Source of the DNA: an uncultured Ruminococcus sp.
Lineage (GTDB): Bacteria; Bacillota; Clostridia; Oscillospirales; Acutalibacteraceae
Length of the DNA: 57,412 bases
Direction: 5' to 3'
Assembly (NCBI GenBank): GCA_902778175.1
Contig: CACYWT010000012.1
Location: 1-57,412, forward strand
Shown: one piece after another, positions 8,993 to 41,248 of the stretch
Numbering within the stretch: position 1 is the stretch's first letter
Layout: the number at the start of each line of letters is the position of its first letter
Notes under the pieces: model-generated
Database searches by the model: none
What the model saw: the letters and a program-made list of their open reading frames with translations, nothing else
What the model was told of the DNA's origin: nothing
Program-made: the position numbers and the translations under genes

Positions 8993-9143
8993 TTATAACC
9001 GCAAAGTATGTCCCCCGAGTCTCGCCTGCCGGCTCGGTCGGTGCTTCTGCTTCGCAGAGGTGTCCACTGGACACCCGCACCCTCTAAGGGAACGACAGCA
9101 AGCCTACGGCTTGCCTTTGCTTGTTGAAAGCAAAGCTTTTAAG
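8993..9143 (+). repeat. Interspersed repeat family R1, copy B (longest)
   Basis: Starts TTATAACCGCAAAGTATG, contains GTGTCCACTGGACAC and CACCCTCTAAGG, and continues with GACAGCAAGCCTACGGC and TTGAAAGCAAAGCTTTTAA. The first 97 bases match copy A (1-100, minus strand); both ends match copy C (23621-23738). It lies against the truncated 5' end of the C45-type pseudogene, so its arrival may have accompanied loss of that gene's front half. Confidence 0.85.
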
Positions 9144-9867
9144 GGCAAGACCTGTTTCAGCTATGATCTGAGATATGTGATGGAAAACTGCACAGATGCA
9201 AAGACGTCGGCAGAATATCTTGCATCACGCAGCAGCCTATATACATATAATATGAACGGCTTTGTCACTGACGACAAGAATACATTCTGCGTAGAGCTTG
9301 TTGTCGGGGATAAGGACGGCAGGACGGTTATCCGCGACAGTAAAACAAAGCTTAAGGCAACACCGCACAAAGAACGCCTTACGGCTTAGCACCACATCTG
9401 TTGCGCCCGAAGGAAGTGCCCTTGGGGTACTCTTTTTCCGTCATTCTGCACACTCGTTTTGCACATTCTGACGAAAAAATTGGCGGCGCATCTGCGGCAC
9501 TATCTTTGTGCGGTATTGCCTTAACGATGGGATAAAATGGACAGATCCTGATTGTTTCTGTGTGGTGAACAGCTTTGCTGCCGAGGGCAATTCTGATATG
9601 ATCGACGGAATTGAAACAAATTATGTCAGATGGAGAAAATATGACCGGCTGTTTTCTTCCGAAAAGGAAAAGATCAGTTTGGCTCGTTTCAAGGAACTCA
9701 TGACAGCCGAAAAAGTAAAAGACAGCCCGGTCGTTTCTATCAGGGGTCAGTTATTGGTTCATCTTGCGGTATTCGATTTTGAAAGCCGCAGTATGCAGGT
9801 AATGTTCTGCGGAAAAGAGGATCCTGATGATATCGAATGGATAGATATCGGGAAGCTGTACAAATAA
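9144..9867 (+). pseudogene. Decayed C45-type acyltransferase/amide hydrolase, 5'-truncated and split by a MITE
   Basis: Two fragments of one gene. The front (from FSYDLRYVMENCTDAKTSA) resembles the C-terminal half of C45/linear amide C-N hydrolases (choloylglycine-hydrolase-like fold). The back is from 9523 (NDGIKWTDPDCFCVVN) to IGKLYK. Removing 9354-9522 joins ...DSKTKL to NDGIKW... in frame, which shows a single parent gene. The N-terminal half with the catalytic Cys is absent; upstream sequence is repeat copy B. About 185 residues remain of the roughly 330 expected. The family call rests on the LRYVMENC...AEYLA pattern and is tentative; the broken state is clear. A shared terminator follows at 9871. 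Confidence 0.7.
9352..9524 (+). mobile_element. MITE-like element M1, copy 1, with TTAA target duplication
   Basis: A 165-bp body (9356-9520) begins GGCAACACCGCACAAAG and ends CTTTGTGCGGTATTGCC, near-perfect terminal inverted repeats, and is flanked on both sides by TTAA (9352-9355 and 9521-9524). It has no transposase, so it would need one in trans. Excision of the body plus one TTAA restores an open frame across the host gene. A second copy with an internal deletion is at 41133-41248. A TA duplication with slightly longer terminal repeats is an equivalent reading of the ends. Confidence 0.88.
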
Positions 9868-41132: not shown

Positions 41133-41248
41133 GGGTAATACCGAACAAAGATAGTGCCGCAGATGCGCCGTCAATTATTTCGTCAGATTGTGAAAAACGA
41201 GCGAAGTTGACCTGACGGTTATCAAGCGAGTTTTGTGCGGTGTTGCCA
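41133..41248 (-). mobile_element. MITE-like element M1, copy 2 (internally deleted)
   Basis: Left end GGTAATACCGAACAAAG and right end TTTTGTGCGGTGTTGCC are the family's inverted ends with a few changes. The first 70 or so bases (ATAGTGCCGCAGATGCGCC onward) match the reverse complement of copy 1 at 9356-9520 closely. At about 115 bases it lacks part of the interior. No clear target duplication remains, so it is older than copy 1. Confidence 0.8.

Follow-up and report, generated by a model that had tools for sequence, protein, structure and literature searches.

A strand-specific fold in a family of MITEs, one of which interrupts a truncated Ruminococcus gene

What has happened to this gene?

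A gene in this stretch of Ruminococcus DNA is interrupted by a short repeat at positions 9352-9524, and the question that the locus raises is whether taking the repeat out gives the gene back, and what kind of repeat it is. Our short answer is that the insertion itself is an ordinary event, and that the family behind it is the more interesting subject. Throughout, the window means the whole 57,412-nucleotide stretch that was analysed (contig CACYWT010000012.1, from an uncultured Ruminococcus sp.), and the features discussed are collected in Table 1.

A preliminary description of this DNA had proposed a 165-bp body with inverted ends between two TTAA copies, and those ends proved to be exact. 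With the TTAA copies counted in, the inverted repeat grows to 22 nt (9352-9373 against 9503-9524, 95% complementary). The element is short and non-coding with 18-bp terminal repeats, in other words a MITE, and there is no open reading frame of at least 80 amino acids within its 165 bp, which bears out the statement that it carries no transposase. The further suggestion that it arrived recently is plausible though undated, given the identical duplications and the open flanks; this copy already falls about 32 bp short of the fuller body of its family, and it lacks the hairpin tip. The shorter copy elsewhere in the window lies directly upstream of a ribosome-binding site and an ATG (41284), between near-matching flanks (ACAG/ATAG).

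Table 1. Positions of the element, its parts and its surroundings in the window
Feature	Position	Strand	Remarks
MITE body	9356-9520, 165 bp	minus	better-folding strand, read 9520 to 9356
Target duplication, left copy	9352-9355	none	TTAA
Target duplication, right copy	9521-9524	none	TTAA
Left terminal inverted repeat	9356-9373	+	GGCAACACCGCACAAAGA
Right terminal inverted repeat	9503-9520	-	GGCAATACCGCACAAAGA on minus
Side hairpin	9374-9385	-	beside left terminal repeat
Extra hairpin insert	9403-9430	none	common to many copies, not all
Second, shorter copy of folded element	41134-41247, 114 bp	+	RNA model 39.7 bits, E 6.3e-8
Left remnant of interrupted gene	9143-9351	+	tblastn to 10 homologue loci, 40-67% identity
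Right remnant, to stop of gene	9525-9867	+	47-66% identity to the 10 homologue loci
Second repeat family, R2	about 8995-9142	+	adjoins 5' break of interrupted gene

Does removing the element restore the gene?

The deletion of 169 bp (3x56+1) shifts the left reading frame by one, onto the right one, and since one frame in three would fit by chance, homologues are needed to judge the rejoining. The right remnant matches 11 of 99 genomes, these being the window genome and ten others, all of the same genus, and the ten homologue matches sit in stop-free open frames of 468-501 codons. In all ten loci the left remnant is matched as well, directly before the right piece, and the junction DNA holds neither the insert (0/10) nor a TTAA (0/10); the TTAA must thus have come from the window species' own CTT-AAC codons. 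At the protein level the window's DSKTK-L / NDGIKW stands against CSTELNDGLNW in the best homologue, full proteins having been read for four of the ten. The uninterrupted homologues for which the preliminary description had asked therefore exist, and one refutation that it had named, flanks that are separate genes (the frames then agreeing by the one-in-three chance), is ruled out by ten loci carrying both pieces adjacent without the insert and retains virtually no probability.

What is rejoined, however, is not the gene. About 283 N-terminal codons are missing, and the break lies beside the second repeat, R2. The match to the left remnant begins at GKTC in five of the ten homologue loci, whereas in the remaining five BLAST extends it by 12-13 residues, into letters of the R2 tail; we read this extension as chance because the tail is common to twelve R2 copies. 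A search for the N-terminal 283 residues of one homologue, run without a positive control, gave no match elsewhere in the window genome, and the one homologue protein searched against Pfam had no match there. The gene is broken twice, so that the idea of exact restoration holds for the frame and fails for the gene: removing the MITE rejoins a fragment.

R2 is itself abundant, a query covering it giving 47 matches in the window genome, its own copy included; copies lie in L062-L072. Twelve aligned copies have a constant head and tail and a variable middle; we also noted that the head (about 95 bp) is near-identical, that the tail measures about 45 bp, that there are hairpins and that several matches lie at contig ends. 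By eye, R2 showed no target duplication.

How common is the family, and where does it insert?

The window genome holds at least 44 BLAST matches to the MITE (40 of 142 candidates scored), and its terminal 20-mer, at up to three mismatches, gives 100+73 matches there against 1+0 for the reversed pattern. Chance is excluded, and this is a multicopy MITE. Including the window genome, the family is found in 36 of 64 genomes of the genus, and several copies sit at contig ends. Among the at least 80 end-sequence matches listed on named genome contigs are the type strain Ruminococcus callidus ATCC 27760, a Ruminococcus flavefaciens MAG and many MAGs of Ruminococcus or unnamed Clostridia; the few from other taxa (for example L163 and L210) may be chance.

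The target site was read from 128 distinct elements (36-420 bp long, no more than 5 mismatches over both ends together, 20 clean flanking bases). Identical 4-bp flanks occur in 88 of them, against one at a control offset, and three agree at 5 bp. The commonest duplications are TTAA (40), TAAA (12), TTTA (8), TTAG (4) and CTAA (4), and the pattern YTAR fits 48 of the 88 and not the other 40. The family prefers TTAA without being bound to it: 48 of the 88 duplications are something else.

Most copies avoid genes. Of the 24 window-genome elements with identical duplications, only the copy described here has 60 or more open codons in matching frames on both sides, whereas 31% of 568 random holes at the same loci have them; at 40 codons, five of the 24 are open on both sides, compared with 50% of random holes. 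From this deficit we take the family to be mostly intergenic. The window copy is the exception, inside a gene that is truncated as well.

In several window-genome copies (L008, L010, L012, L014, L016, L018, L021, L027 and L029) the left end departs from GCACAAAGA and reads GCTGGGAGA, GCCGGGAGA or nearly so, a change that disrupts the outer pairing on just one side.

Which transposase could have moved it?

A DDE_Tnp_1 search of the 64 genus genomes found a full transposon of the kind that the preliminary description had suggested looking for. At this locus (L252), an intact frame for a 325-residue transposase lies between TTAA copies; the protein belongs to the IS5 family (NCBIfam NF033581, 308 bits against a cut-off of 140) and the ends are GGCAACACCGCACAAAGA and GGCAACACCACACAATAA, so that the left repeat of the window element is identical to one end at 18/18 positions and to the other at 15/18. 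L269 is a degenerate relative with this layout, its frame interrupted by stops, and a protein search gives relatives in 19 of 64 genus genomes. Among the 30 transposase loci listed, ends of the element's type (at most one mismatch in 12) occur at 11 distinct places, at three of them on both sides (L282, L285, L292), and three more distant relatives carry GGAAACACTGAATAAA at one end.

The window genome, a draft of 118 contigs, gave neither a DDE_Tnp_1 nor an L252-like match. Of the two genomes with most first-look candidates, G045 (240) and the window genome (141), neither shows an L252-like transposase, which speaks against such a partner. Other partners were considered as well. An IS701-type transposase (Pfam DDE_5) occurs at nine loci in seven of the 64 genomes, in none with matching ends; paired ends up to 4 kb apart (loci L136-L215) enclosed no convincing autonomous element; and an adjacent repeat end in L384 has a duplicated flank and GC-rich open frames, in which no transposase was seen by eye.

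We think, going by the ends, that an IS5-family transposase like that of L252, supplied in trans, would have moved the element, and that this partner is now either absent from the window genome or not assembled. The element is a non-autonomous MITE of an order-wide family and has inserted at a TTAA in a gene that also misses its 5' part. A strictly TTAA-specific enzyme, piggyBac-like or other, would account for TTAA being the commonest duplication (40/88), but is very improbable given 48 non-TTAA duplications around intact ends and an IS5-family transposase within an element that has matching ends.

Such an assignment has precedents: YTAR is reported as the usual duplication of IS5 (PMC10359306), and some MITEs of Porphyromonas gingivalis are described as having IS5-type ends (PMC4596501). 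The element is likewise short and non-autonomous, its terminal repeats match the IS5 family, and its 4-bp duplication agrees with YTAR in length and in its commonest form, TTAA. It differs in having a looser target (48/88 fit), in a host genome without a detected transposase, whose presence is usual for such MITEs though not strictly required, and in a folded body that is conserved across many genera and several end types.

Does the body fold, and on which strand?

The body is not filler: it forms a long imperfect hairpin that has internal loops and carries a side hairpin. Once sorted by orientation, the bodies share one architecture. The fold was tested on the minus strand in 29 diverse elements, drawn from 48 of 165-175 bp, of which 32 were left after an 88% identity filter; three of these (L040, L006, L177) were removed, and one (L147) was turned round. 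With a 67-pair structure taken from one member, 91.0% of cells are paired; sliding the partners by 1-3 columns lowers this to 35-50%, a control somewhat favourable to the fold since the structure comes from an aligned sequence. In addition, both sides have changed at 40 pairs, compared with 22.5 (sd 2.4) in shuffles, none of 500 reaching as high, although the sequences share ancestry and cell counts are not independent events. The base pairs of the body are kept by compensatory change. The outer pair of the side hairpin is kept in all 29 elements of this genus-level set, but among the 74 rows from other genera about 30 have gaps in this hairpin.

The plus strand, tried as the folded one, has little covariation: RNAalifold gives it 21 pairs at -22 kcal/mol, against -124.9 on the minus strand, where other settings were used and the comparison is not strict. 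The window element matches an RNA model of the family with 81.5 bits on minus and 31.8 on plus, and its minus-strand fold has -81.0 kcal/mol (z -9.0). Across 86 elements (145-235 bp, no N, oriented by sequence features) the energy is lower on the minus strand in every one, with means of -85.1 and -64.6 kcal/mol; measured against shuffles, z averages -9.0 on minus and -5.8 on plus, the minus strand being lower in 82 and the plus strand favoured in four (L023, L040, L148, L236).

The minus strand is lower in energy because wobble pairs outnumber their mirror mismatches. There are 199 G.U cells and 47 A.C cells; 33 columns favour G.U and eight A.C, with five ties (sign test, p 1e-4); single transitions that depart from the commonest pair are split 75 (G.U) to 20 (A.C); and, counted by sequence, 28 elements favour G.U, none A.C and one is tied. 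The body is adapted to folding on the minus strand in particular. This points to selection on an RNA or, less probably, on one strand of DNA; since single-stranded DNA tolerates G.T as well, the wobble excess alone is no proof of RNA.

How far does the fold reach beyond the genus?

With a covariance model of the fold, matches were found in 55 of 295 genomes and 32 of 148 genera of the order (E up to 1e-3), which we take to be Oscillospirales; many of the weaker ones cover only the inner hairpin (about positions 26-134). In a phylum sample the model matches three of 398 genomes (E up to 1e-5), the window genome and two others of the same order; most non-matching genomes of that sample are without listed kinship, but the result argues against generic hairpin matches.

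At 69 places from 69 sources (none in L391 at E up to 1e-9, two in L316), mostly in other genera although L332 belongs to the window's own, the terminal repeats differ widely and the core is retained. Their best similarity to the training sequences has a median of 0.71, one (L314) being identical to a training sequence, and the 4-bp duplication is identical at 19, has one mismatch at 20 and is neither at 30. The strand at these places was chosen by the model, which biases the 69/69 result. A model-fitted alignment of 74 rows is 88.7% paired, against 38-49% when slid, and has 445 G.U and 146 A.C cells, with columns at 39 to 13; both alignment and strand choice lean to the model here, and five rows are second-strand matches of the same places.

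Some of the differing ends are those of other IS5 variants: GGCAACACCGCACAATT is found as in L269, and GGAGACACTGATTAAAT is near GGAAACACTGAATAAA. A class with GGTTCAGGTGTC-like ends has a 7-bp direct repeat in two of six copies, extending in one of them into the end sequence, and possibly represents another transposon type, for which these repeats are only suggestive.

What might the folded strand do?

We favour the view, with a probability of about 0.72, that this is a MITE mobilised by IS5-family transposases whose body acts as a strand-specific folded RNA, most likely in a self-serving role. The folded strand would then serve the element itself, for instance as part of a transcript that is processed or stabilised and so renders insertions tolerable. 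For bacterial MITEs, three papers (PMC10969869, PMC3049150, PMC2229807) describe transcripts with stem-loops, processing by RNases and effects on mRNA, and our literature search, which covered few subscription journals, turned up no account of this element, nor of MITEs in Ruminococcus. The upstream gene points the same way as the element in 35 of 86 cases and the opposite way in 41, with none called in 10; with no such bias, read-through would make either strand, and a simple scan identified no promoter inside the element.

A bolder version, which we hold tentatively and at somewhat less than even odds, is that a mobile structured RNA, seen so far in a single bacterial order, rides MITEs independently of the transposase, the RNA and not the DNA ends being the unit under selection. 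The terminal repeats would then change from one IS5 subgroup to another, and perhaps to those of a different kind of transposon, while the core stays conserved.

By analogy with ERIC and the Neisseria Correia elements, the body could instead be a cis-regulatory segment of mRNA, co-transcribed and then cut or protecting an end, and kept for its effect on host genes. Such roles are described for other bacterial MITEs; 23 of the 24 copies do not have 60 open codons in matching frames to left and right, a state found in 69% of random holes; and a gene starts shortly after the copy at 41134. However, the purging of harmful insertions also gives intergenic placement, and the absence of a consistent orientation relative to neighbours makes us think this reading unlikely.

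We consider it rather improbable that this is an ordinary MITE, in which the body would be a passive palindrome of DNA without any role for its folded strand, its complementarity maintained by template-switch repair and common ancestry. In favour of this view, palindrome correction, too, would change both sides of pairs, the elements show no orientation bias relative to genes, and long stem-loops are common in bacterial MITEs (PMC10969869, PMC2229807). Palindrome correction is strand-blind, yet wobbles outnumber mirror mismatches by 199 to 47 and the minus strand is lower in energy in 86 of 86, and the inner core persists despite quite different end sequences.

Why does it matter, and what does it resemble?

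Bacterial MITEs are often treated as passive leftovers, with their stem-loops a by-product of the inverted ends. Covariation and the strand-specific wobble excess suggest that here the folded body is under selection across many genera, and make it a testable question whether small mobile repeats spread because of the RNA that they encode. The covariance model can also be used for annotating such elements in gut and rumen bacteria.

ERIC, BOX/RUP/SPRITE and Correia are likewise mobile repeats of 100-200 bp with long stem-loops. They have other hosts and ends, and may or may not share what the present family shows, a covariation-supported, strand-specific fold that occurs together with different terminal repeats. 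With the structured RNA families of Rfam it shares a covarying secondary structure on one strand, but it is mobile, has transposon ends and, at the loci searched, matches none of them: the window has no match in Rfam 15 at gathering thresholds, and 14 additional loci have none within the element at E up to 1. Two weak CRISPR-repeat matches in L336 lie outside the element.

What else travels with the family?

The extra hairpin insert at 9403-9430 is a hairpin cassette, CCCGAAGGAAGTGCCCTTGGGG, of 25-28 bp that occurs inside the element in several genomes and in either orientation (L145, L171, L222; the orientation opposite to the window's in L145 and L171), and is a third mobile or shuffled piece. 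One 369-bp relative with similar ends (L111, G044:C295) has other hairpin repeats nested inside it.

Plasmid records contained no match to the element. Ten viral contigs carry the end sequence, several in a MITE-like form, with full-length copies in L128, L129 and L131, and two unannotated fecal phage records have partial BLAST matches, one of which (L312) holds a full 172-bp element. This copy is identical to that of L314, in the complete genome of another family, and the identity may mark a possible route between hosts.
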